From the NCBI GenBank assembly GCA_030248295.1, contig JASANH010000601.1, positions 124,001 through 188,000 on the forward strand: a stretch of DNA of 64,000 bases, given 5' to 3'. Below the pieces are notes generated by a model. It saw only the letters and a program-made list of their open reading frames with translations. It was not told where the DNA came from and did no database searches. This document shows, in pieces, positions 1-48,469 of the stretch. Position 1 is the first letter of the stretch. Every line of letters starts with the position of its first letter. A program made the position numbers and the translations under genes. The DNA comes from Mesodorylaimus sp. YZB2_4. Its lineage: Eukaryota > Nematoda > Enoplea > Dorylaimida > Dorylaimidae.

Positions 1-1416
1 GCTTCATCGAAAAAACAACATCCTTCGAACAAAAGTTCGAAAAAATCGAAATCCGATGATCAATCATCAACAGTGGCGGCTGCACCGGATTCGATTACGA
101 TGGATGATTTGAAATCGTTAATCAGTTTCGGAAATTTTCTGATAGGATTTTGTGTAATGATTTATTGCGGTTATTGGTTCGGCGTTTATATTTCGACTTT
201 GCACGAAAATCAAATGTGGTTTACGAATATTCAAGAAGTGGAAAGAGAAATCTCGTTTCGAACCGAATGTGGCCTTTATTATTCTTATTACAAGCATTTA
301 GTTCATGCATCGGCATTTTGGAAAGGTAAGATTTTAAAATTTCTCGCAAATTATTGGCAGATCTGCACGGTTTTTATTTGGATTTTGAATGTTTGTTTTT
401 TGAATATTGTAGAGGGGATATTTAGTTTAGACTTTTAATTTTGAGACTTGATTCTGTGATTTTTTTACCGATATAAAAATGTTTTGTCTATAAATATTGG
501 ATATTCTAATTTGAGACTGAATTTTTTGAATTTCTGTTTTGATTCGGACTTTTTTCGTATTTTAGGCCTTCATGATTTGTCATTAGACAATGCAACTGAA
601 CATGCGCGTACGATCAATATTATACAACGTTTCAATATTTTTCCCGAAATTGCCTTAGCTGCTATTTATCGATTATTTACTGATTTTTGGCATCGATTGA
701 CGGGCGGTCCAATATTTTTTTACGTTTATTCAATTTTCGCGTTGAATGGATTTTATATGTGCGTGATATTTGCTACGAGCTGGATGATGACGAGCGGATC
801 GTGGTTGGCTGGATTATTATGCGTGGCCTTTTATATTATGAATTTGGACGATACGACTCGTGTATCTTTCACCATCAATTTACGCGAATCGTTTGCTATC
901 CCGTTCTTTTTCCTTCAAACATTTTTTACTTGCTATTATCTTCGACGTGTCCAAACAACGACGCGCGATGAAAAAATATCACGAAATCGATGGGAAAGCG
1001 TATCTCAGTTGGGCGTATTTGTCAGTTCGTTATTATTCTCGTTATCTTGGCAATTCAATCAGTTCTTCCTTTTTCTGCAAGCATTGACCTTATATGGAAT
1101 GGGCATTTTGTTGTTGGCTCCTCGAGCCAAGATATCGCGTCTTCTATTGTTGAATGGGGCCGCCTTGCTGGCCACGTGTCTTCTGCAAATGGGCCAGCCT
1201 ATGCTATTGGGCTCGATATACCTTAGCTTCGTGCCTGCAGCTATGCTGAGCATGTATTTGTGTCGAGAGTGGTCCATTTCTGGTGGAATCGTTGGTGGTG
1301 GGTTGAAGTTGATCGTGCAAACAGTCTTCACATTTTTGATGACGATCCCCTTAAATATCGCTGTCAAGAAGTTATTGAATTTGGAAGCGGATGAACATAT
1401 TTTCAAGTTTTTAAAA
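1..1416 (+). pseudogene. Partial duplicate of DPY19 exons 1-2
   Basis: This is a direct copy of the first two coding exons of the complete DPY19 gene that starts at 3439, offset by exactly 3483 bases. The exon 1 part covers 1-325 (its first 45 bases lie outside the window) and the exon 2 part covers 566-1416. The long open frames of both copies translate identically, introns included. Exons 3 and 4 do not follow, because the repeat ends before them, so this copy cannot make the full enzyme. It is either a recent tandem duplication fragment or an assembly duplicate; the indel-rich tail of the copy favours the second. Confidence 0.85.
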
Positions 1417-3438: not shown

Positions 3439-6400
3439 ATGGAAACGCGTCAACGAAAAAAACCAACGAGTGCAACGAACGCTGCTTCATCGAAAAAACA
3501 ACATCCTTCGAACAAAAGTTCGAAAAAATCGAAATCCGATGATCAATCATCAACAGTGGCGGCTGCACCGGATTCGATTACGATGGATGATTTGAAATCG
3601 TTAATCAGTTTCGGAAATTTTCTGATAGGATTTTGTGTAATGATTTATTGCGGTTATTGGTTCGGCGTTTATATTTCGACTTTGCACGAAAATCAAATGT
3701 GGTTTACGAATATTCAAGAAGTGGAAAGAGAAATCTCGTTTCGAACCGAATGTGGCCTTTATTATTCTTATTACAAGCATTTAGTTCATGCATCGGCATT
3801 TTGGAAAGGTAAGATTTTAAAATTTCTCGCAAATTATTGGCAGATCTGCACGGTTTTTATTTGGATTTTGAATGTTTGTTTTTTGAATATTGTAGAGGGG
3901 ATATTTAGTTTAGACTTTTAATTTTGAGACTTGATTCTGTGATTTTTTTACCGATATAAAAATGTTTTGTCTATAAATATTGGATATTCTAATTTGAGAC
4001 TGAATTTTTTGAATTTCTGTTTTGATTCGGACTTTTTTCGTATTTTAGGCCTTCATGATTTGTCATTAGACAATGCAACTGAACATGCGCGTACGATCAA
4101 TATTATACAACGTTTCAATATTTTTCCCGAAATTGCCTTAGCTGCTATTTATCGATTATTTACTGATTTTTGGCATCGATTGACGGGCGGTCCAATATTT
4201 TTTTACGTTTATTCAATTTTCGCGTTGAATGGATTTTATATGTGCGTGATATTTGCTACGAGCTGGATGATGACGAGCGGATCGTGGTTGGCTGGATTAT
4301 TATGCGTGGCCTTTTATATTATGAATTTGGACGATACGACTCGTGTATCTTTCACCATCAATTTACGCGAATCGTTTGCTATCCCGTTCTTTTTCCTTCA
4401 AACATTTTTTACTTGCTATTATCTTCGACGTGTCCAAACAACGACGCGCGATGAAAAAATATCACGAAATCGATGGGAAAGCGTATCTCAGTTGGGCGTA
4501 TTTGTCAGTTCGTTATTATTCTCGTTATCTTGGCAATTCAATCAGTTCTTCCTTTTTCTGCAAGCATTGACCTTATATGGAATGGGCATTTTGTTGTTGG
4601 CTCCTCGAGCCAAGATATCGCGTCTTCTATTGTTGAATGGGGCCGCCTTGCTGGCCACGTGTCTTCTGCAAATGGGCCAGCCTATGCTATTGGGCTCGAT
4701 ATACCTTAGCTTCGTGCCTGCAGCTATGCTGAGCATGTATTTGTGTCGAGAGTGGTCCATTTCTGGTGGAATCGTTGGTGGTGGGTTGAAGTTGATCGTG
4801 CAAACAGTCTTCACATTTTTGATGACGATCCCCTTAAATATCGCTGTCAAGAAGTTATTGAATTTGGAAGCGGATGAACATATTTTCAAGTTTTTAAAAG
4901 TAAGTAGGGAATTCAGGGGAGGAGGAGGGAGGCTGGTCGTGAAGGTTTCGTTATGCCCATGTGGAAATCAGGGTATGGTGTGAAGTATAGGTACAGCAGT
5001 CAGGGGCATGCCAGGCCAGCATTGGTCGATCCGATCGGACTGTTGGATCGACATCTGCTGGGAAGTGATAACGTTAAGTATTGCCTATCCTGTAATAATC
5101 GAGTCCCATCTTTGAAGTTGGTATTGAATCTCGCTGCAGATATTGAATAGTTCTCCCGTGTCCCGTTGATGTGGCCTGATAAACGATGACAGCGAGGGAG
5201 TGGTGCCAAGTGCGTCACCCCCATTGAAATTTTATTTTTGTAGCGGATTGGCCAGAAGCGGATTGGGTGGGATGTAGGTCTGAAATCGGATCGGATCGAT
5301 CGATGCTAGCTGGCGGGTGCTCAGGCGATTTTCCAGGGTGGTTGGTCTTGGGTAGTTGTAGGGACTAAAATGGAATTTGGACACTTTCCCCTAAAGAAGC
5401 CATGTCATACAATAGGGTAGAGCCCGAAATTTGTGGCGAAAAGTTATATTTCTTGCAACTTTTTACGAAACATTTGCGGCAATGGCACATGGTTCCATTG
5501 GCTTTTCTTCAGAATGCATAATTTTAGGGGTAGGCAGAGATAAACATGTTTTTCCATGAGGCCCCAGGAAGAGGGGGTAAAACTTGCATGGGGGACCTTG
5601 GCGACTTTTTAGTCGACCAAGTTTAGTAGTGGTGATCCCTACGTGGGGGGTAGGGTAACCTCTCTCCCGCTGGCCATGGTGGTGCAGTGCTGCAGTGGTG
5701 CATATTGCAAGGTAGCGAGTGGCTGGACTCCTCCCGGGTTCAATCCCCAGTCATGGAGGTCGCTTTCCGAACCATAAACCCTCGATGGCTTTGTATGCCA
5801 GGCCGTTAGTACCAGTCGAAATGCGTCGAATGGAGAGACGGAAGTCAAACGAGGAGATAGTCTCGCCAGGGTTCACAGCCCACCCGCCATCGTCCGACGA
5901 AGTCAGTGTCCAGTCGAGGATGCCCTCGTGCGGAGGTACTCCCAGCGGAGTGTGCTGGCCGACTACAGGCAGAACGGGCTTAAGCCTGCAACATTGAAAA
6001 AATAACTTTTCCCGTGGGGTTGTTCGGCCAAAAAGCTGGCAAGGGTCTTCTCCTTCCGTGCATTTTTCACCGTGTACCCCTGGGGTCAAGTATGGGCAAG
6101 GGGGGACCCTCCCCCGGGAGATACCCAGTTGCGCCGCTCCCGGATTGCGCCGTTCGGATTGCGCCGTTTTAGTTGCGCCGTTTCCTGATTGCGCCGTTTT
6201 GAGTTGCGCCGATTTTCAATTGCGCCGCTTTGAGTTGCGCCGGTCACAAATTGCGCTGTTTTCTCAGGTTGTAATTCGATACCAGTACATACAGACTCAG
6301 TACATCAGTGCATACAGCAAATACTTATCGTCATCGAATGAAACATTAACGAATACAATAAAAAATATAGTTATTTGTCGCAAACCTGAACTACACAAAT

Positions 6401-36205: not shown

Positions 36206-36790
36206 TCACCGATTGTATCGTTCGGGGGACGTGTACCAGGCGGGTGGTCTGTAGGGGGGCTTGTAGTCGGTCCATCGTGCCTCCCAAGGCCGTTCGGCCA
36301 ACCAGTACTTCTCGAGGGTGTTGGTGGCTATGAGGGCATTGTCGTGCAATTTTCGAGCCCTGCTCTTGTCCATGGACTCGAAGACCCACGGTCGATAAGG
36401 GTAGTAGAGAGGACGGTCGTAATGGGGGTCTCGATAACGACGCCAATATTCGGGATCGATTTGGCCTTGATCAATAAATGCGTATCGACTCGAATGGGCG
36501 TGCCAAGTCAAGGTGGGGTGGTTCCACCAAAGGCCCTGTGGTGGGTCCAGATTGTAGTTGCGACGGTTGGGCCAGGCAGCGTATGGCCAGTCGGCCGGAC
36601 TCCTCTGGTAACGTCGGTCGTACCAATAGTCGTCCCAAATGTCCCATTCTCGATAATAGCGAAGGAAAGGCGAGGCTCGTTCGCGATAGTTCTCGAACTG
36701 AGTCAGTTTGTGCACTTGAGGAGCCGAGGCAGCCCGATGAACGCCCGGCCTTTGCAAGGCTAGCGAACGGGCAGCTTCCACTTCGGCCAT
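36206..36790 (-). CDS. Trp/Tyr/Arg-rich protein, paralogue A
   Basis: A single-exon open frame of 194 residues starting at the ATG at 36790. It is very rich in W, Y, R and P and has no signal peptide, membrane segment or known domain. It is clearly homologous along its length to the gene at 37594-38244: shared blocks include YYREWD/YHRDYD, YWYDRR, WPNRRNYNLDPPQ, LTWHAHSSRYAF.DQ, RRYRDPHYDRPL and a C-terminal WYTSPERY. Conservation of spaced aromatic and Arg residues between two diverged copies shows both are selected as proteins. Upstream splicing cannot be excluded. The function is unknown; a structural or cytoskeletal role would be a guess. Confidence 0.8.
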   Translation of the reverse strand: MAEVEAARSLALQRPGVHRAASAPQVHKLTQFENYRERASPFLRYYREWDIWDDYWYDRRYQRSPADWPYAAWPNRRNYNLDPPQGLWWNHPTLTWHAHSSRYAFIDQGQIDPEYWRRYRDPHYDRPLYYPYRPWVFESMDKSRARKLHDNALIATNTLEKYWLAERPWEARWTDYKPPYRPPAWYTSPERYNR

Positions 36791-37593
36791 GATGGTGTTG
36801 GGTAACAAACTATACGAGTCGCAGTCCAGCTAAGGCACTGCACTGCACTCAGATAGAGCCAGCTAAACGACACCTTTCAGTTTGGCGAGGCCAGAAATGA
36901 CAACTGGGCGAGGCTGTTGCCACAGTTGACTCATCTGGTCGTTTAGAAAAGCGAATTCCAGGTGCGAGGAGAAAACGGACGAGGATGCGGAAAGAAAGCA
37001 CGAGCCTGGAAGTTTTATGGGTAAGCTAAGAGGAGGTGCTGGCCTGGTTCAGGCCTCGGTGGGGCGGCAGATTGGATTGTGCATGAGCTGCGTGGCCGGC
37101 AGAAGCCACAGGTACAGATGCGGATGGCACTCGCGGCCAGTCTGTGTGGTTGCCCTACATATATTTTGGCGGGTTTCCAATTTATGCGCACCCGACCAAT
37201 GATCGATGATCTTGCCCGAACCAGACCTACTGCAAATATTAGTGACGTGTAAGGAGTTCTTGCACATCACTGCTCCGGAGAGGTTACTCAAAATGTCAAG
37301 TTTTGACCCGGGAGCTCCAAAATCTCAGTTCTTACTGGACCCAGAATACTACCCCCCCCCCCCATCCCGTCACAACACAACACTCTTGTTCAATATTTTA
37401 TGATTTCAAAAACAAAAAGGCAGTGGCGCGGACAGTCCACGTGACCATTGGTCATAGCATTTGCATAAAATAAGCAATTATGAAAGGTGTGTACACAAGT
37501 CCCGCCGTGTCTACACACTCGATCATAAAATCTAATTAATTTGCTAATGAATCATTCCAACCCTAAAAGATGAATCAAGTTTGCACATCTGGT
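36791..37593. other. Spacer between the two W/Y/R-rich genes
   Basis: Presumably the promoter of paralogue A and the 3' flank of paralogue B. A C-run occurs near 37353. No other feature was recognised. Confidence 0.4.
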
Positions 37594-38244
37594 TTAGGTA
37601 TCGTAGCTGAAGAAGTAACGACGAGGGGACGTCATCCAGGTCTGTTGTTGGTATGGCTCCTTGTACTCGTTCCATCGACGCTCCCACGAGTACGGGGCCA
37701 ACCAATTCCTTTGCACCGAGTCGAAACCGATCAAATTTTGCTTATACAATTGCAAAACGCGTTTCGGTTCGACCAAATCGTGAGCCCAGGGTCGTGCCGG
37801 TGTCCACAATGGTCGGTCGTAATACGGATCACGATATCGACGCGAGTACATTGGGTCGGCCTGGTCGAGGAAGGCGTATCGGTCGTAGCGTGGATACCAG
37901 GTCAGGGCCGGATAGTGCCACCAGAAACTGTAGGGGGGATCTGAATGATAGTATCGGCGATTAGGCCAGGCGTGAGGAGGCCAGAAGAGGGCGCTCGTGT
38001 TGAACCTTCTGTCCCACCAGTAATCACTGTTCAGGTCGTAGTCGCGATGATAGCGTTTGAAGGGGCCAGCACGGTTGTTGTAGGTGATGTAAGGCAAGTC
38101 CTTGCCACTGGTCAACGAGGGGGACGAGTAGGTGCGCTTGATGGGATACTCGTGGACAGTGTGCAGACGCAATTGCTTGCTATCCAAATTGGTCTGCGAT
38201 GAAAGGGCAGCCATCGAACGACTACGTTGTAAACTCGACGACAT
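37594..38244 (-). CDS. Trp/Tyr/Arg-rich protein, paralogue B
   Basis: A single-exon open frame of 216 residues, starting MSSSLQRSRSMAALSSQ. It matches paralogue A at 36206-36790 in order and spacing of motifs: YITYNNRAGPFKRYHRDYD, DYWWDRRF, HAWPNRRYYHSDPPY, PALTWYPRYDRYAFLDQ, RRYRDPYYDRPLW, RPWAHDL and a C-terminal WMTSPRRYF. The N-terminal 30 residues are Ser-rich and differ between the paralogues. No catalytic or targeting motif is visible. The same-strand tandem arrangement points to local gene duplication. Confidence 0.82.
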   Translation of the reverse strand: MSSSLQRSRSMAALSSQTNLDSKQLRLHTVHEYPIKRTYSSPSLTSGKDLPYITYNNRAGPFKRYHRDYDLNSDYWWDRRFNTSALFWPPHAWPNRRYYHSDPPYSFWWHYPALTWYPRYDRYAFLDQADPMYSRRYRDPYYDRPLWTPARPWAHDLVEPKRVLQLYKQNLIGFDSVQRNWLAPYSWERRWNEYKEPYQQQTWMTSPRRYFFSYDT

Positions 38245-39761
38245 TTTTTCGCGCTCGTCTATTCACTAGTTCGACGGAAACCAAAGAGACGAAATTCGTT
38301 GTTTCGCTCGTTCTAGCAAGGGAAACGAAGAAGAGGGCCTCGGCGAAAGAGAAGCTGGCTTGTCAGTTGCCCGCGAAGCCTAGCCTCGAATTCAGCTTAA
38401 AATAACGCCTCGCCCTTGCGAAAACGAGTGGAAGAAGAGGATGGGTGACGAATGGCTCCTTCCTCACAATTGCACTGGCAATTGGAGATGAGGTGTAGTG
38501 ACGCCACGGGCGATGCGAATAAGGGGTCAGAGCCTTCCCTGAGACAATGGTCACTCGGTGCAGGCATGAATACTAGTGACTATGCTACTGCATAGCTGAA
38601 TTTGCTAGTGATACGAGAATGGAGTCACCACAGACATCGCAATGCCCCTGTCCCATATTTGGTTTGCCGATTCCCCCTCAGGTTTTTGGAATCAATGACT
38701 TGCGACAGTATGCGATACAGTAGGAGGGCAAAGAGCAAGAAACTATGCTCATTGAGCCAGCTCCATGCGAAGGTGATCCGGCTAATTTTGGAACAAAAAT
38801 TACCATTTTCTTGCCAGGCTTTCCTGACTTCTACTGGGATAACCTTAACCCAGAGGATGCCGACCTGTTTGCGGTTCTGCCAATCAAACCATGTCAGACC
38901 CCCCACAAATTTGACTGCAGGCATCGAGTTTTAATCCCAACTCCATATCGTGTGCGCATTACACTGCACGCTTAGTCAGCCAGACTTGACTTGAGGTCCC
39001 GTAATTCTTGCGTCTTATCGCCTCGTTCCACAACATTGTCATGGCTGAACGGATTTTCCCTCTGCTTCAGAAATCAACTACTGCATGTACCTAATGTGTC
39101 TGTGTGCACTCGAGATAATCCAGGAAGTCAAAGTTTCGAATAACGTAGGTCCAGACAGAGATACACATTCTACTGTATGGTCGGGGAAGATTTCAGAACA
39201 TTTTGACCAGTTTCTGAGCAATTCAGCCACTCGTACCCACGAAGGGCTATCAGTAATAAATGGGTTATTCAACTCTTATTCACCCAAAAGCGGTAATGGC
39301 CCAGCCCGCTTCAGGTACTTTACCCTCTTCCACTGCAGTCTGGGGGAAACTTGCGATGGGAGCCTTTTCTTTTGGTCGGGTGTCCGCGATCCCCGACTTT
39401 GCTCGCCAGTGTACCCGCTGTTCTGATCGTGAGAGTGTACAGTATATACACCATTATTCAAAACAGCACACGAATACTGCTCGCATAACTTTATATTATT
39501 TTAAAAAATCGACAACTCACATGGACACAAGTTAAAAATGGCAAGTTGCCCAAATTAGTACCCTGAATTAATGAACGAGACAACAACTATGACGCACACA
39601 GGGAACACAGGACAAAGGACAGAACAGAAAGACAAAAACACAGGACGAAACAAATACGCAGCACGGAAAACAAAAAGACAGGACATGCAAAGACGCAGAA
39701 CAAACACAAAAAAGGACAGCACAAACACGCAAAATACAATAACCGAACTAACATCCACCTC
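38245..39761. other. Spacer; 3' UTR region of the membrane-protein gene
   Basis: No gene recognised in 38245-39540. From about 39570 to 39761, immediately 3' of the minus-strand stop codon, the plus strand is almost free of T, so the minus-strand transcript would be nearly free of A and made of repeated CCTGT/TTTGT-like words. Confidence 0.5.
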
Positions 39762-42700
39762 CTAACGCCTTCCGCCCCTTCCACCCGACGGGCTCCTTCC
39801 ACGACGCCCCTTCTCCGCCGACCGACTCCTGCGACGATCCACCACGCCGGACGACGAACCGTGGCGACGCGCTCCATCCCGACTGCGTTCACGTGGCTGC
39901 ATACGGTACTCGCGCGGATCGACTCGCTTTCCCGCCATGTACTCTAACGAGTTCTTCTTTTGGAGTTCGCCTTTCTTGAGCCACTCCTCGGCCGAGAATC
40001 GTTTCTTCGGACCGCACGGGGCCAATAACGCCGCGGGCACACGACGACCGTTCAACGACACCAACCTGCCGGACTTGAATTTCTCGAACTTGGTCGAGGC
40101 CATTTCGTGCTTGTACTGGGCTGAAATGGGTAAGGTCATCATAACGAGCAAGCACTGACAAGAGACCACACTCACCGCTGATGTTCTCGTCGCTGTCGAC
40201 GTAAGCCTCCAAGCATAGCAGCACGATGGTGACGTGCTTGAACAACTCCGACTGCTCCAGTCGCCAGGCGCCGAACCGACCTTTGCAGATGATCGCGACG
40301 ATCTCGTGGAGATTGAACTCCTGCTTCATGGCCCACATTTCGATGCCGATGAAAATGGCCGCCACCGTGACGCACTCCGTCTTTCCCGTTTCTTCGTAGA
40401 CCAACATATTCGGCAGATCGGGTTGGATTCCGTATTCGTCCCCGGGACGGTACATGGTCTCACGTCCGGTCAGCAAGGCGTCGACCAGCCTCAACACGGC
40501 CCTGCGACGAGTCAGCAACAACGACAAATTGGTGACTTCGACGACGACGATCTGAAAGAAAAACTGAGCCGAATAAGACAAATAGGCACACTCTTTCTCC
40601 CACTTACATCACGGACGATTCCATTGTACATAATGCACTTGATGTGCACTTTGAGCAGATCGATGGTCGTGTCGAACGGAATATTCTCTTCCACTTCGTA
40701 CTCGTACGGGTCCTTGTGCTGAAAGCCGCGATTGGTCGTGTCGAACAGCTGCTTGGCCGACTTCTCAGCCCGACGAATTTGCACCACGAGTCCGATCTGA
40801 AACAAAGGCTCGTCAAAAAGGAAAAGTGAAGACAGGAAAAAAGTGCTCACGTTCTTTTGGACGAGGAAGTCGACGTAGTCGTTTCCATGAAAGTCTCGCA
40901 GCCTCGGCTCCTGGGCCAACCAGATTTTACGATTCGTTCCCGTTTCGATGCAGTTCGCATTCATGACCGCCATGATCCTCTCCTGGGTGTCCCGTCCAAG
41001 TGCGTCGTACTTCTTCACCAGCACCTCGGCCACGTTCTCCTTCAACACCAACTTGTCCTGCTGGGAGTAGCTGTCCGAAATTTCAATCAAATCTCGCCTC
41101 GGGTTGACACGCTTGAATGCGGCCTGCACGATTTCGTCAATTTCTGAGAGCAGGTTCCTTTGAATCTCGTTGTTGACTCGGCCCATTTTCGGACGGCCTT
41201 GTTCTTGATCCTTCTGGCCAGGACGCGAGCCAAAAACGTAGCGAAGGAAGCGCTTGAAGGCGGCGTAGCCCTTGATCGTCTTGCTGTGCTTCTGTTCTTC
41301 GAAGGCCAGTATCACCGGATTGCCTCGTCCATTTTGCGGATCTTCGCGAAGAAACTCGGCCGTGTCTCGCCGGTACAAAAGGGCGTGCATGTCGCGCAGC
41401 CTGTCCTCTTTTCGTTCCACTCCGATCCTCCAAATCGCAACGGCTTTCAGCAGAGCCTGCTCTTCCTCGTCTGAAAAGGAGTAGGATGAAATGAGGGACT
41501 GTGCCCCCACATTCCCACCAACTCACATTGCCTCAACATAACTGCTCGATTTTCCCTGTCGTCCAAAATCTTGTCGTACACTCGCCAAAAAACGACGTAG
41601 CTGATGATCATAATCGGGATGGCGATCAGACTCGTCAGCCACAGGGCTTTGGCTGAAAAGGAGTCGCTTAGTTCAGGAAATGACTTTTTCTATCGACCTT
41701 ACCCCAGGATGTCATTCGGTGGTAAAAGGCGAATATGTCCGTGTCGATGTCGTCGATGACGTCTGGAACGGAAGTGAGTTTCAAAAAGGAAAAGAGTCAA
41801 AAGTAGCCAACTCACCGATGTCTGCTTCGTCGAAGATGTACGGGTAAACAGCAAAGCCGTTCATGGACGCTGCATAGGCGTAGACGTAGACGTGGACGCT
41901 GATTTCTGCCAGTTTCTCGCCGAAATAGTACGTCCAATTAACGGTTTCACGAAACACCTGCAAAAGGGTGGTCAGTGCCAGTTTGAATTACAAATTAGGA
42001 GGCTTACATCGAGCAAGAAGTTGTCCGACGCTCGGCGGATTTCGATTTCAAAATAGCGGAAATAGCCAGGAAGAGGCTTCAATATTTTAAAACTGAGGGT
42101 TCGATTTTTCCGAGAAAAGGCGATCGAAGCGAAATCGGAGATGTTGATCGCTAAAGTGGAAAGCTAATTTTGTTTGTGGGAGCGAAAGAAAAGAGGTTCT
42201 TACAGAAGACGAGCAGTCGGTGGGGCAGCAGGGCCCATATGCCGTCGTTCGTCGTCACATTGCATTGAATTTTTACGTCGTCAAATTTGTAGTCGAAAAT
42301 CGTGTCCGGAATTGGGACAACGCCAATTGTCTCGTTGCATTTGCCGGCCGGCCTGGCTATCGTGGTGCCGCCGATCCGGTTCATTGTGCAATTGAAACTG
42401 GCGTTGGCGAACTTGGACTTGGGTGGAATGACGATAAGCAAATCGTGTTCTTTGCCCTGGTAGTAACCTTGATGACGATCGAACGGAAGAATGAAGCCGC
42501 CGTACTCAAAATGCACTGATGTTTTAACTGAAACATGGATTGTTAAGATTTGCAAGAAAAAAAGTTGAAATATTGTGTCTTACTGTCGTAATCACACTGA
42601 CCGCCAGTTCCGCCGTAAATCGCCTCAGCATCGCCATTGTAAGTAGTTGAGTCTTCGCAGATAGTTTTCGCTCGATTTGGACAATATATCTGGTCCACCT

Positions 42701-43354
42701 TCTCGCTGCAATAGTCTTCAGGGAGTGTCTGGCAGATGGCTCCTTTCGCTCCCTTCGTGCCGTTCTTGATGCAAAAGCAGCTTCCGATTTCAACGCACGC
42801 CTTCACCTTTCGTTTTTCCACTGCACATTGCTCGCAGTCGTCAGAACCTGAAGGTGAATACTTGCGCTTACCTAATGAGCAAAAAAGTTTCGAAAACCGT
42901 TTTTCTTAAGTATACGAAATTCTCAAGAGAAAAAATGAAAGAAGCCGCAACACTTACAAAGCATAAATTTCAGAAAATAGTAGTCATCTTCCCCAGTTTC
43001 GGTTTTCAAAGTGTATTTGCCAAATGCCGTCGTGTTGGTCAAGTTCAGTCGGAACGTTGCAGTTTGAGATCCACATTTCGTTTCATCGATGACTTCATTG
43101 TTTTCGTTCAACAGTTTCACGATCTCGTCACCAGTACAGGTGTTCGACTTTAAGTCAATGTGACCATCCTCCGAGATGATATCCGTTTCAAAATTATATT
43201 TATCGAAGATTGAAACTTCGACTAAAAAAGACAAAGTAAGCAATAGCGAGCTCGAACGATGCCTTTACTTACCTTCCGCATTCACATAAGCCAGTATCAA
43301 GAGGCCGAACGCCACCAAAAGAATCTTTTTCTTTTTGTTTCTCTTCTCCATCAT
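39762..43354 (-). CDS. Single-pass membrane protein of unknown family, long copy
   Basis: Unrecognised receptor-like protein. Twelve exons join in phase: 43354-43273, 43221-42958, 42847-42584, 42527-42204, 42150-42008, 41957-41816, 41762-41703, 41652-41527, 41470-40851, 40796-40608, 40551-40176 and 40120-39762, giving 982 residues. Order: signal peptide (KKKILLVAFGLLILAYVNA), a beta-rich part starting FDKYNFET, a Cys-rich module of 11 Cys (exon 3), a second beta-rich part with several N-glycosylation sites, then a membrane segment at about 428-448 (LTSLIAIPIMIISYVVFW). The cytoplasmic part of about 530 residues is charged and helical, with two hydrophobic stretches late (VAAIFIGIEMW, HVTIVLLCLEAYV), and ends in an Arg/Ser/Gly-rich tail. 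Extracellular placement is inferred. A head-to-head paralogue starts at 44434. Confidence 0.85.
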
Positions 43355-44433
43355 AATTCTTAAATTCAAACTTTTGATCGAAAATAAATTAAATATTTTC
43401 TCTTCTAAGGTTTAACGGAAAATCTTTACGATAAGATCAAACGACTGTTCTCGTTCTTTGTTTTCGAAGACATTGCTTGCATAAGCAACGAAACTTTGCT
43501 GCGAGCGCACATCTTGGCTGTATGCTTATGACATTTGCACCGATTGGTGGAGCGCAGGTGCAAAATGGCGCGAACTTTCAAACATGGCCATTGATTATAC
43601 ACCGAGCGGTCATGGTTAATGTTATGCTGCAGTTCCTGATGGATGATGTGCATTACAGTCAGAGCGAGCGAAGAGCAGGTGCGCTGTGATGGAGTGAGCA
43701 GCTAGAACATCAAACAAGTAACGTCTGAGAATTAGCCTAAAAATGAGCTATGCGCCGCTAGAAGTGGCTTGAGATTATAACCTGGCAAATTGTGTATGCA
43801 AACGAGCAATGCATTCACATCACAGTTTTCGGGATGCGTTTAAGGTTAGATTTTTTACGTAGTAAATAGCATGAGTTTGAGGCACCAGATCTGAGGAACG
43901 CTCAGCGCCCGAGCCTTCGCGCCAGGTACGATCCCTTTGCTCTTGGTTGCGCTTTGCTGCAGGACGAAGCAAAAAATCTTCATTATTAATTAAGGCAGGG
44001 CTCGCTGCATATTTTTATTAGGATTGCTGAACTGCAGGCTCAATTTCTTGGACCTGATTTTTGTCTCAAGTCATTGGGATGTCATTTGCGTTGAGTTTTG
44101 GAGCATTCTTGCTCCGTCCCTCCGATTACCATTTGCCCACGTGTGCTAGTTCTTGCTCGACTCGCAGCTGGCTGCACTGCAAACTGTATCGTACAGTATA
44201 TAATCCTGACATGTGTTTCTTTGGAGCTCAGAAAAGTCCAATGGGCGCGATGTTGCTGGCATGCGACGCTGATCGCTTTACAACATCCTCCTCGTGCGCT
44301 ATCAGTGCTGCTGCTGATTGGTGATTAGAGCGTTCGAACGTAATTTGCGTCAGCACAGAGCAAGCGTCCATACAAAAGTACGATTCGAATTTTATCAATA
44401 AATTTGACCGCGTGAAGAGTTTCGGCTACGGCA
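43355..44433. promoter_or_regulatory. Shared upstream region of the divergent membrane-protein genes
   Basis: The 1.08 kb between the two start codons must hold both promoters. I see no inverted symmetry between the two halves and no defendable core promoter motif. Confidence 0.4.
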
Positions 44434-47400
44434 ATGCCAAAGAAGAAAATGCTTCTTCTGGCGTTCATGATCTCGGTGCTGGCCTGTGTGAAAGCTCAAA
44501 TTCGGATAGGCAGTAAGCTCAGCCTTGCTTCGAGTTCCAGTACATTCTCGCATCGTCTTTCCAGCCGAATTATTTCTGTACGACAAGTACAATTTCGAAA
44601 CAACTGTCGTCTCTGATAGTGGTCATTTTGAATTCAAGGATACATGGAAATGTCGAGCCAACGAATCCATATTGGTACAACTAATGAACCCAAAGAATGA
44701 AATCGCGGATGAAAAGAGCTGCAGGCCTAACACCAAAATCACTTTCATTTTCCGAGTTAACTTGACCAGCCAAACAGAATTTGGAACGTACTGGCTCAGA
44801 AGGCATGATTTTTTTAGCGTCTTGAAGAATTTTTCATTTCAATATACGTTAAGTGAGTGAGTTGTTTATGAGTCTTGTTTTCATCTTTGTTCTCGAGACA
44901 AAATGCTCTGGAGCGCTAAAATTGACAGCATCATTTTTAGGCTCAGACAATTGCGAGGAGTGTTTTTTTGAAAAAAGGAGAAATAATAATACATGCGACC
45001 GACCTGGGATCTGCTACTGTGTAAGGAACGAGACAACTAACCCCGCAGTTGTCTGTCGTAGATTGCACGACATTTGCTACTCCGCCAAGGGGCGCTCATT
45101 CTGCCCAATGACAAGAAAAATAGGATGGTATCATCATAGCCTCTGCGAGGACACAGACCGCAATGATGGATGGGCTGAGGCGATGTATAATGGGAATGAA
45201 TGTGAAACCAACTGTACGCACGGAAAAGTTTAAAAATTTTTCAGTTTGTGAACCACGCTTTTTTCAGACACGAAATCTGTCCATTTTAAGTTGGGCAGCT
45301 CGTCTCTCCTGTTTGATCGGTACCGAGGGTACTACCAGGGCAGAAACAGGGATTTGGAGATCGCCATCCCGCCCAACTCGAAGGTCGCCAGGGCCAGATT
45401 CAACTGCACCATCAACCGCGTCGGCGGCATCACCATCGACAGGCCATTCGGGGTATGCGACGACGAAATGGGCATCGTCAAAATTGAAGACACAGTTTTC
45501 GACAACGGCTTCGACGATGTGAAAATTCAATGTAATTTGACGGCGAGCACTGGTCAGTGGGCGCTGCTGGAACAACGATTACTCGTATTTCGTGAGGACA
45601 TCTGTTTTCTCAATTTTGATCCTTAATCGACTTCCCCTCTTTAGCGGCTGGTGCCTCCGATTTCGTGGCGATAGTTTTTTATCGCGACAACCGAACCATT
45701 GCTTTAAAAATGCTGAAGCCCCTTCCAACCTTTTTCCGAGTTCTGGCAGTCGAAATCCGTCAGCTGTCGGACAATGGCCTGCTCGGGGTAAGAGACATCG
45801 AATTTGGCATTCTTGATTAAGGGTATATTTCTTCTGCTGAGTGAACTTTTCGCCAGACTGGCCTCGGCTTCTACCAAGATTCAAGGCGGTATTCGACTTT
45901 TTGGGTTGTGGAGGTCGACCGTTTCACCCTCAACAAGACAACACCACTTTTCTACTTGTGTTCACATTATTAGTCAGAATGAGAGTGTGTTGGGTCGGCC
46001 TCCGTTTTTAAACTGCTATCTGATGGCCGTTTATTGTTTCGAGCCCATATATCCTAGTGTGGCAAGCACATACTGTAGAGAGGTAGAGCGCACAATTCAG
46101 CTATGAGATCACTGCCCGTGATCAAAGGCCCTGACCGCTCGAATGTCCAGTGCTCGAGTCTACTAGTTTGACTCGACATATCAGTCCCGCTATGATGGCG
46201 CGAGATATCGTGCGCCAGCAGATGATATCGAGCTGATCTCACAGATGATTCATGCTTCACCGAAATACGCCTTCAGGCCTTGTTACAAGAACATAAGCGA
46301 TCTAGCTAGGCTCAAAAACTTACCAGTTCCCAGAAAAAGTTTGCATAAACTAGTCTTATGATGAATTTTCTTCAGTCAGAAGGAGGCTCGTTTTTATCTG
46401 GCCAGCAATTTTTTGTGCGACTTCTTTCTTTTTGTCACTTGGCAGATGAGCATGATGATGACGAGAGACCCTCTGAGAAAACCTGATCTGTAGTCTAGCT
46501 CAATGGGCTTGTAAGACTTGTAAATGCCTTGGTGAAACTGGTCATGGCTGGGTGATGTTATTTGAAACTTGCAGCTCGTAAAGGGAATGGTCGATGAGAT
46601 ATGAGCAGGACTTTTCTGGGTTCACGATCTGTATTTAAAGGAGCTCAAAAAGCCGACTTGAAAATGTGGTCAGATCAGATGAGATAGTGTTGAATTTATA
46701 GATAAAAGATGCAAGCAGGGTTTGTTTCTTTTTTTGCTCGAGTCACTCAACTGCTCAAAAATGTATTTATCGCGAGACCGACGTCGAGTTATGTGGTCCC
46801 TCAAAATATCCTACCTGGAACTTACGATTAGTCTGGGAGAGACCAGGGGAGAGTTCCGAGTCAAACCAGTGCGCTTAACGTTACGCTTATCGTGAGGTCG
46901 CTTAGCGTAGGATAGTAGCGTGTTCATGAGAATGTGCCGTCGTATTTCATGATACCTCATGTAGCAAAAGTGTTTTTTTTATTTCGGCCAATCTTTTCAA
47001 AGAAAGTAGGTTTATTGGTTGACTTAAGATTCAGTGATAAGTGGGGTGGGTTTTGACTTTTTAAAATGGGCTCGAGTTGGATTTCTGGGCTGGCATCGGG
47101 TCAAAGCTTTAAGCCTTTCGTCAGATCTGGCTTTGGCTTACTTGGGTTGCTGCTTTGTGAAACACGAGAAATAGCGTCTCTTTCGCAAAGGCGATTCAAA
47201 CAGGATCGTGCTCGTAGCTCGTAGTAGCGTTCGACCGGGGTCAACTATTTCCGGGGTCGGGGTTGACTGGGCCCGATTGGGCTAGTACGTAGGATACAAG
47301 TTCATAGAACTTTTTGTGGATGTAGAGCGTCACCTACTTTTTTCCTTGAGAAAAAGCAATATTTTAGACGGGCAATAACCCATGTCTTATTGAATACTAG

Positions 47401-48469
47401 ATGAAAACAAAATGAGCGAGCGTCTAAGCATCCGAGTTCTATGTAAATAGGGGCATGCAGAGTCACCTCCACTCCCATTCTTCATCGTTATCAGATACAC
47501 CCTCTGGCTCAGACTCTATGTTTTCCTCCTCATCAGAATTTTCCTGATCTTCGCACCTTCTTTGCTAGTTAACCCAAGAAAATTATCTGGTTGCCCTTAT
47601 TGTTAGCATACAGTTTTGGGACCCCGACCCCGCCCATAATTTTTGGGGGCAGGGACGGGGTCGGGGCCCCGGTCGAGCGCTAGCTCGTAGCCATTCAAAT
47701 TGATCCGCTGCAATTTCTGACACTGTAAGGCTCATACACTTGTTTCCATGCTGGCATCCGACGGTCGACTTAACCCGCCATTGTTTCTCGCCACTGTGAG
47801 GCCTATTGGGTGGTCTGAACAATTTTTGTCTTTACAGACTTTTCCTTTTTTCAGGTTTTCAACGAAACCAACAATTGGATGAACGAATTTGATGGAAACA
47901 TCACAGATATCTACGCCCTCGTTTACATCTATGCATACGCGGCCTCCAGGAACGGCTTGGCCGTCTATCCATACATCGTGGACAAAATTGCTGCGATCAG
48001 TGAGTTTGCCAGCTCGGATCATCTCATCTCAAAGTCATCCTGTGTTCTCTTTAGGCGATATTCCTAAAGAAGGACCCTCCTTCCGTCATCGAATGACCCC
48101 CTGGGGTGAGCTCATTCAGGAATGTGTTAAAGACAGCTGATTGAGTCTTTTTCAGCCCAGTCCCTCTGGCTCGCCTGTTTGATCGCCATCGCCCTCACGA
48201 TCGTCGGCCGTGTCGGTTTTTGGCGTGACTACAGCAAAATTTTGGAGAACCGAGGACTACTGAGGCGGTGCAAGTGGACCTCTTCCATTGAAACGCGACT
48301 TACTTTAACCAATTTCATTCTGACGAAGAAAAACAGAAATTTTTTATCGCCCATGAGCGAATTCTGGTGGAAATCCCAAAGTGACAAAAGAGAGGAACAT
48401 AATCAGGGCCACTGCGGCGGTGGAGTTGGGCTGTCCACACACTCGTATGTACACTCTAACATGAGCTGA
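44434..48469 (+). CDS. Single-pass membrane protein of unknown family, short copy
   Basis: Paralogue of the gene at 39762-43354 in opposite orientation. Eight exons join in phase: 44434-44512, 44565-44852, 44941-45213, 45268-45591, 45645-45787, 47855-47999, 48055-48105 and 48156-48469, giving 538 residues. Exon phases match the long copy throughout, and exons 4 and 5 have identical lengths (324 and 143 bases). Shared motifs are DKYNFET, a 10-Cys module, FDRYRGYYQG versus FDRHQGYYQG, FDDVKIQCN, VYIYAYAASRNG and the membrane segment WLACLIAIALTIVG at about 436-455. After it only about 80 residues follow, with no counterpart of the long copy's last four exons. Intron 5 is 2067 bp and repeat-bearing. 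The exon 3 donor (GTACGC) is weak but keeps phase. Confidence 0.82.
47618..47670. repeat. GC-rich hairpin
   Basis: CCCCGACCCCG at 47622-47632 and its exact reverse complement at 47656-47666, with GGG/CCC pairing just outside, surround a 23-base loop. It lies in intron 5 of the short membrane-protein gene. Confidence 0.7.

Follow-up and report, generated by a model that had tools for sequence, protein, structure and literature searches.

Head-to-head receptor-like gene pairs form a multi-copy family in the nematode Mesodorylaimus, with a long member whose tail very probably descends from a tyrosine phosphatase

Protein tyrosine phosphatase (PTP)-like domains without key catalytic residues are present in EGG-3, EGG-4 and EGG-5 of C. 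elegans, and depletion of both EGG-4 and EGG-5 is lethal to embryos, according to the excerpted text of PMC5603424. In the frog CEACAM pairs, the receptors of which lie in opposite orientation, gene conversion occurs in the ligand-binding exon, and in Siglec-11/16 it covers the binding exon, as given in the excerpts of PMC5112662 and PMC5701461, respectively. Here we describe a pair of related receptor-like genes at positions 39762-48469 of a stretch of 64,000 nucleotides (the window; positions 124,001 to 188,000 of contig JASANH010000601.1, assembly GCA_030248295.1) from the dorylaimid nematode Mesodorylaimus sp. YZB2_4. The long gene L (39762-43354, minus strand) and the short gene S (44434-48469, plus strand) stand head-to-head, and the pair recurs across the genome. 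As a whole, these pairs are best explained as a two-chain pseudophosphatase receptor family with a converted tail, a reading that we regard as rather probable from the sequence evidence given below. No paper on such a receptor-pair family was found in searches of the open-licence literature.

The L gene was modelled with 12 exons encoding 982 aa, a model also recovered by a spliced aligner, and near-identical exon structure was found in most other L loci. Exons 1-6 lie at 43273-43354, 42958-43221, 42584-42847, 42204-42527, 42008-42150 and 41816-41957, and exons 7-12 at 41703-41762, 41527-41652, 40851-41470, 40608-40796, 40176-40551 and 39762-40120, all on the minus strand. The S gene encodes 538 aa in 8 exons on the plus strand (44434-44512, 44565-44852, 44941-45213, 45268-45591, 45645-45787, 47855-47999, 48055-48105 and 48156-48469). 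Introns of both genes are GT-AG and 50-110 nt long, except S intron 5 (45788-47854, plus strand; 2067 nt), which measures 739-2356 nt in 12 of the 13 S copies described below and 272 nt in the copy at locus L018. The two proteins are 42% identical over 546 residues (BLASTP, E=8e-136), the phases of the eight exons common to both are identical (0,1,1,1,1,0,1,1), and exon 4 (324 nt) as well as exon 5 (143 nt) are equally long in L and S. Hydropathy alone revealed one clear membrane helix and an N-terminal hydrophobic stretch in each protein, the latter a putative signal peptide. In L, exon 8 (41527-41652, minus strand) encodes the helix (aa 430-448) and the start of the tail, which continues for about 530 residues beyond the helix. 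In S, the helix (48164-48220) is followed by a short tail with the stop (48221-48469, plus strand), which ends about 82 residues beyond the helix and is weakly conserved between copies. A preliminary description made from the letters alone had proposed just such a pair, head-to-head and related, with one member tail-less, the same exon phases, two exons of equal length and a cytoplasmic part of about 530 residues in L, and the models bear it out. 

The window's own assembly (145 Mb, 1067 contigs) gave 115 matches with 674 residues of L as query and 113 matches (up to E=10) with 512 residues of S, and candidate regions were modelled with a purpose-written splice-aware aligner. Fourteen L loci were obtained (the window, L018, L019, L020, L021 and L025-L033), ten of them on contig C7 alone, and S was present head-to-head at all 13 L loci that are assembled on both sides, L020 being cut by a contig end. 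Eleven L reading frames are fully open and that of L020 is open over its assembled part, while L032 is a pseudogene with two frameshifts and two stops, and the L copy of L018 lacks the tail and is interrupted by one stop. A single tail exon was modelled as two pieces by the aligner in L028 and in L033. Fragments of the family also occur on C67, C89 and elsewhere on C7 (858 kb, 1298 kb). The existence of a multi-copy family of L/S pairs is thus virtually certain. Across loci S copies match S copies and L copies match L copies, so that L and S appear to be two old classes that spread as a cassette. The earlier proposal of an inverted duplication therefore holds in that the genes are inverted duplicates, but not as a single local duplication. 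On C7, the pairs L027 and L028 lie in opposite orientation, and their L exons 4-7 look the same. S exon 4 is frameshifted in each of them, though not at the same residue, and the near-sameness of the two pairs might reflect a recent duplicate or an artefact.

Standard searches did not place L. The whole L protein had no significant Pfam match (best E 0.41, under the cut-off) and no match among PDB sequences, and a search of 5.8 billion proteins returned no relative of L, whether L was queried singly or together with S in a 4-row alignment; this search requires shared five-residue words and scored about 8000 candidates per query, so that distant relatives may be missed. Neither a tail nor an ectodomain profile matched PDB sequences up to E=10. 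When 270 residues of the tail around exons 9-11 were compared with PF00102, a match was obtained at E=0.067 over profile positions 30-224 of 234, at 13.2 bits as against the curated cut-off of 20.9, and exon 11 alone did not match PF00102. Comparison of profile hidden Markov models built from four L tails and 22 PTP sequences gave P=7e-4 over 72 columns and, in a second alignment, P=1.3e-3 over 207 columns with a score of 31.4, as compared to at most 20.9 in 60 column shuffles and 13.0 for the reversed tail. Each direct score is weak alone, and the case for tail homology therefore leans on a bridging gene and its introns. Outside its own family the L tail matched three places in the genome, namely C345:82296-82607 (E=1.4e-4), C146:69912-70193 (E=0.011) and one at E=5.6. 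The C345 locus matches PF00102 independently (E=2.5e-6), as one of 159 such matches in the genome; the hand-spliced C345 gene matches PF00102 at E=7.1e-20, has a hydrophobic stretch upstream (by eye), and is 27% identical to the L tail over 128 residues (BLASTP, E=9e-11). Two phase-0 introns stand at matching places in L and C345 (boundaries of the latter by eye), after VDFLVQKN in L and WRMIWEKQ in C345, and before IVVVEVTNL and ILIFHIENW, respectively. L046 has an acceptor at the second of these places, and L039, a further PTP of this genome, has no intron at either place. Taken by profile comparison or through an intermediate member, the tail is related to PF00102. Weighing against this assignment are the low hhalign probabilities of 26% and 18.5%. 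AlphaFold2 models of single exons were of too low confidence for use (pLDDT 47 for exon 11, and 54 for the ectodomain exon 4, which came out beta-rich).

The PTP-like domain of L spans 40212-40966 (minus strand; about aa 637-852, exons 9-11), and the place of the catalytic loop, HCSAGVGRS/T in PTPs, is occupied by the degenerate YEETGKTECVT (40366-40398, minus strand; located by alignment). The loop aligns as VHCSAGVGRS in PTPs, VQCPTGTHQS in C345 and VYEETGKTEC in L, where both the catalytic Cys and Arg are absent and the active-PTP motif HC-x5-R is lost; the place of the WPD motif reads LSL in one alignment and is partly gapped in another. Catalysis by PTPs requires the loop Cys and Arg. With its catalytic loop lost, the tail should be a dead phosphatase, and by descent it is very probably a dead PTP. 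The preliminary description had found no family that fits; this stands for the ectodomain, which gave no significant Pfam match (best E 0.94), including none to immunoglobulin (Ig) or fibronectin type III (FN3) domains, and no match in PDB sequences or in the search of 5.8 billion proteins, but not for the tail. The FN3-like look of the membrane-proximal ectodomain (exons 4-7; 41703-42527, minus strand) is a reading by eye with no detected match. 

PTPs are greatly expanded in this genome, the 159 PF00102 matches being exon matches (e.g. L039, L043, L044, L046 and L047), and for one of these PTPs the four closest named relatives all come from Trichuris (36-40%). Loop decay among them is graded, from HCSAGVGRS through HCSAGYQRS, HCSAGLQRS, VQCPTGTHQS and VNCPTGVHQS, with YEETGKTEC in the L tail; the genome thus retains graded stages of catalytic-loop loss.

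Divergence among L copies drops sharply within the tail. We compared the copies as two contig groups, C148/C649 versus C7, and determined the proportion of synonymous differences (pS) per exon over 32 between-group pairs (24 for exons 1-3), with L032 and L018 left out. Between groups, exons 2 and 3 had pS values of 0.45 and 0.55, exons 9, 10 and 11 had values of 0.068, 0.10 and 0.20, and exon 12 was again high at 0.49. In windows of 40 codons it fell from 0.50 to 0.009 at codons 481-520, stayed at 0.05-0.14 up to codon 760 and was back at 0.34-0.48 past codon 840. Total divergence (11 loci, 24 between-group pairs) was 33% at the start of the gene, 0.9% at its minimum and 14-16% at the C-terminus. 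The homogenised stretch, delimited by between-group divergence per bin, covers 40844-41593 (minus strand), where bins differ by 0.9-9.2% as compared to 17-34% in exons 1-4. Exons 1, 2, 3 and 12 are the most diverged coding portion between copies; the membrane-distal ectodomain (42584-43221, minus strand) consists of exon 2, which looks beta-rich by eye, and the Cys-rich exon 3. The cause of this synonymous valley, which has diverged sequence on either side, is in all likelihood ectopic gene conversion with its centre in the inner tail. Two observations speak against conversion. Intron 8, beside the most uniform exon, is 75% identical between groups, while introns 5 and 7 are 83 and 93% identical. 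In addition, an identical tract longer than in all 1000 permutations was found in 5 of 24 between-group pairs, and only three of the five are tail tracts (227-344 bp), the other two being tracts of 51 bp around 42114-42164; two further tail tracts were reached in 1 of 1000 permutations, and the remaining 17 pairs were weaker. Exon 5 may also have been touched by some conversion.

Strong codon bias, or constraint acting at the DNA or RNA level, could instead underlie the low synonymous divergence of the tail. The GC content at third codon positions (GC3) of exon 9 (0.69) exceeds that of exons 2-3 (0.48-0.55), as such a bias would have it, and intron 8 is less alike than the adjoining exon would suggest. 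However, GC3 climbs along L and peaks in exon 11, where pS already rises, and values higher still in exons 11 and 12 (0.81 and 0.74) go with the much larger pS of these exons. Over the 9 loci with 12 exons, between-group identity reaches 89% in intron 9 and 92% in intron 10 as compared to 51% in intron 2, and the identical tail tracts, up to 344 bp long, extend slightly into introns. Constraint or codon bias is thus very unlikely to account for the valley. The extra copies could also be alternative haplotypes of one locus in the assembly, as C649 is only 17 kb long and C148 ends inside one copy. Yet the two contig groups differ by the said 17-34% in exons 1-4, C7 alone carries its ten loci, and one neighbouring gene on C148 is without a close second copy, which together make haplotypes extremely improbable.

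What S does was judged from its integrity, its substitutions and its relation to L. The reading frame of S is open through the helix in 10 of 13 copies, and four of the 13 carry lesions confined to the tail, each a frameshift or stop. Further spliced exons of S, which would have altered the contrast with L drawn in the preliminary description, were looked for in the genome with the L tail as query, and no tail-like exon was found beside any S gene (best 43 candidates); the model of S without further exons rests on homology. At 45857-45973, within S intron 5, a candidate alternative terminal exon would yield a soluble protein, but it was rejected as a conserved exon, its only significantly scoring relative (in L019) being broken into two pieces that differ in frame. 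In 11 of 13 S copies a basic residue (R in 10, H in 1; Leu in the other 2 copies) stands near the inner end of the helix, where L has Y in 12 of 13 alignable copies and H in the pseudogene L032. Such a residue resembles that of short-tailed activating receptors, which pair with an adaptor, but we give it little weight because the position is close to the membrane edge. Over 30 between-group pairs, the ratio of nonsynonymous (pN) to synonymous differences in S was 0.36, 0.28 and 0.22 in exons 4, 5 and 6, and 0.54-0.62 in exons 2 and 3, the helix and the tail. As judged from these sequences, S is kept by selection and is not simply decaying. No 20-codon window of L showed pN/pS above 1 (8 C7 copies; all below 0.7), and in S (10 C7 copies, broken ones included) the window 421-440 reached 1.17 with low pS, the others being at or below 0.83; positive selection is not claimed, as recombination confounds such window tests.

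The preliminary description proposed S as a decoy or co-receptor. As a decoy, S would be a paired receptor that competes for the L ligand, as in vertebrates; the head-to-head arrangement with one tail-less member and the basic residue in 11 of 13 copies would allow this. A decoy must keep its ligand-binding part like that of the receptor. At the 11 loci compared, however, each of the eight exons gave similar pS and pN between L and S whether the two came from one pair or from different pairs (permutation p 0.08-0.98 for pN), and the conversion signal lies mainly in the tail. The prediction fails, since S is no closer to the L ectodomain of its partner than to that of other pairs, and we consider a decoy quite unlikely. 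Alternatively, the cluster could evolve by neutral birth and death, with L the sole working protein, S a decaying passenger and the valley an incidental homogenisation. Ectodomain frameshifts in three of 13 S copies and tail lesions in four would be expected then, as would the lack of pN/pS above 1 in L windows and its occurrence in a single low-pS window of S. This reading is nevertheless improbable in view of the 10 S copies open through the helix, the between-group ratios of 0.22-0.36 in S exons 4-6, and the presence of S at every one of the 13 testable loci. 

S may still be a co-receptor or partner chain of L. Over 11 loci the distance matrices of L and S are correlated (Mantel r 0.69-0.81, p about 0.001 or less). 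Several findings tell against a joint role of the two. Within C7 alone (8 loci) the correlation was not significant (r 0.14-0.32, p 0.07-0.25), so that most of the 11-locus correlation reflects the two contig groups, and a tightly co-evolving complex of L and S might have shown a correlation within C7. The ectodomain frameshifts of S (L027, L028 and L032) and the higher pN/pS of S in the small C148/C649 group (3 pairs; 0.44 in exon 4 and 0.63 in exon 5) point the same way. On the other side stands the arrangement of the starts. Modelled starts of L and S are separated by 358-423 bp in 10 pairs and by larger gaps in the remaining three (L019, 986 bp; the window, 1079 bp; L018, 2734 bp); these distances are affected by a few gene models which begin one or more residues inside the true start. 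An intergenic block at 43420-43585 (no strand) is common to other pairs, with 83% identity over 171 bp to the L029 pair; the L029 pair, used as query, matched 11 of 11 other pairs tested (L018 and L020 left out), and a consensus of ten pairs besides that of the window also supports the block. This block is likely part of a bidirectional promoter. The close starts in 10 pairs and the shared block suggest one such promoter, and hence L and S are probably made together.

We therefore propose the following for the pairs as a whole. They would form a lineage-restricted family of divergently transcribed receptors, in which L is a single-pass receptor with a tail derived from a receptor-type PTP domain stripped of its catalytic residues. 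L would most likely signal not by catalysis but by docking partners, as a pseudophosphatase; such a docking role is plausible since the catalytically deficient PTP-like EGG-3, EGG-4 and EGG-5 are known, at least as excerpted in PMC5603424. S would be an old tail-less paralogue, the L/S cassette being present at 13 places. Gene conversion would keep the inner tail of L alike, with the outer modules of both ectodomains diverging, and the two proteins would be co-produced as two chains, variable outside and common inside. That they are chains of one receptor is put forward tentatively, at slightly less than an even chance. It is doubtful, though conceivable, that the family serves as an invertebrate recognition repertoire for telling self, mates or microbes apart, in which some twelve two-chain receptors would differ in their outer modules and share a single pseudophosphatase interior maintained by conversion. 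An orphan-looking pair becomes a testable family, with many copies in one genome, in the same orientation, variable outside and common inside.

Elsewhere in the window, two exactly identical stretches of 2156 bp (1-2156 and 3484-5639) each hold the same 346-codon open frame, which we take to resemble DPY-19; they are either a recent tandem duplication or an assembly artefact, and the first may begin before the window. Adjacent genes on the minus strand (36206-36829 and 37594-38262) encode Trp/Tyr/Arg-rich proteins of one family, which has 10 own-genome matches on 6 contigs; the one of the two proteins that was scanned had no Pfam match up to E=1. In the genome at large, no exact copy of the C. 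elegans SL1 leader is present. The 488 kb contig C73 carries a long COX1 frame (L035, C73:251816-256168) that is free of stops under both mitochondrial codes tried (tables 5 and 13), and an inverted partial copy lies close to it; the COX1-like places, 15 in all, are probably nuclear copies of mitochondrial DNA.

Receptor-type PTPs are single-pass receptors with a PTP-related tail, as L is predicted to be, the homology running through the C345 gene. L is unlike them in that its loop and WPD motif are lost, its score lies below the Pfam cut-off and its ectodomain has no significant match to Ig or FN3. Vertebrate receptor pseudophosphatases, such as PTPRU and inactive D2 domains, likewise combine a receptor with an inactive PTP domain, but PTPRU, likened here by description, does not appear as a repeated gene pair in the excerpted text of PMC7320164. 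In the same way, the excerpts of PMC5603424, from which EGG-3, EGG-4 and EGG-5 are likened by description, describe no cluster of head-to-head pairs. CEACAM and Siglec-11/16 share with L and S the combination of related receptors, different tails and gene conversion, as far as the excerpts of PMC5112662 and PMC5701461 go. In those two vertebrate paired-receptor systems it is the ligand-binding exon that is kept alike, whereas L keeps its cytoplasmic exon alike and the ectodomains diverge, so that the site of conversion is opposite to that in both.

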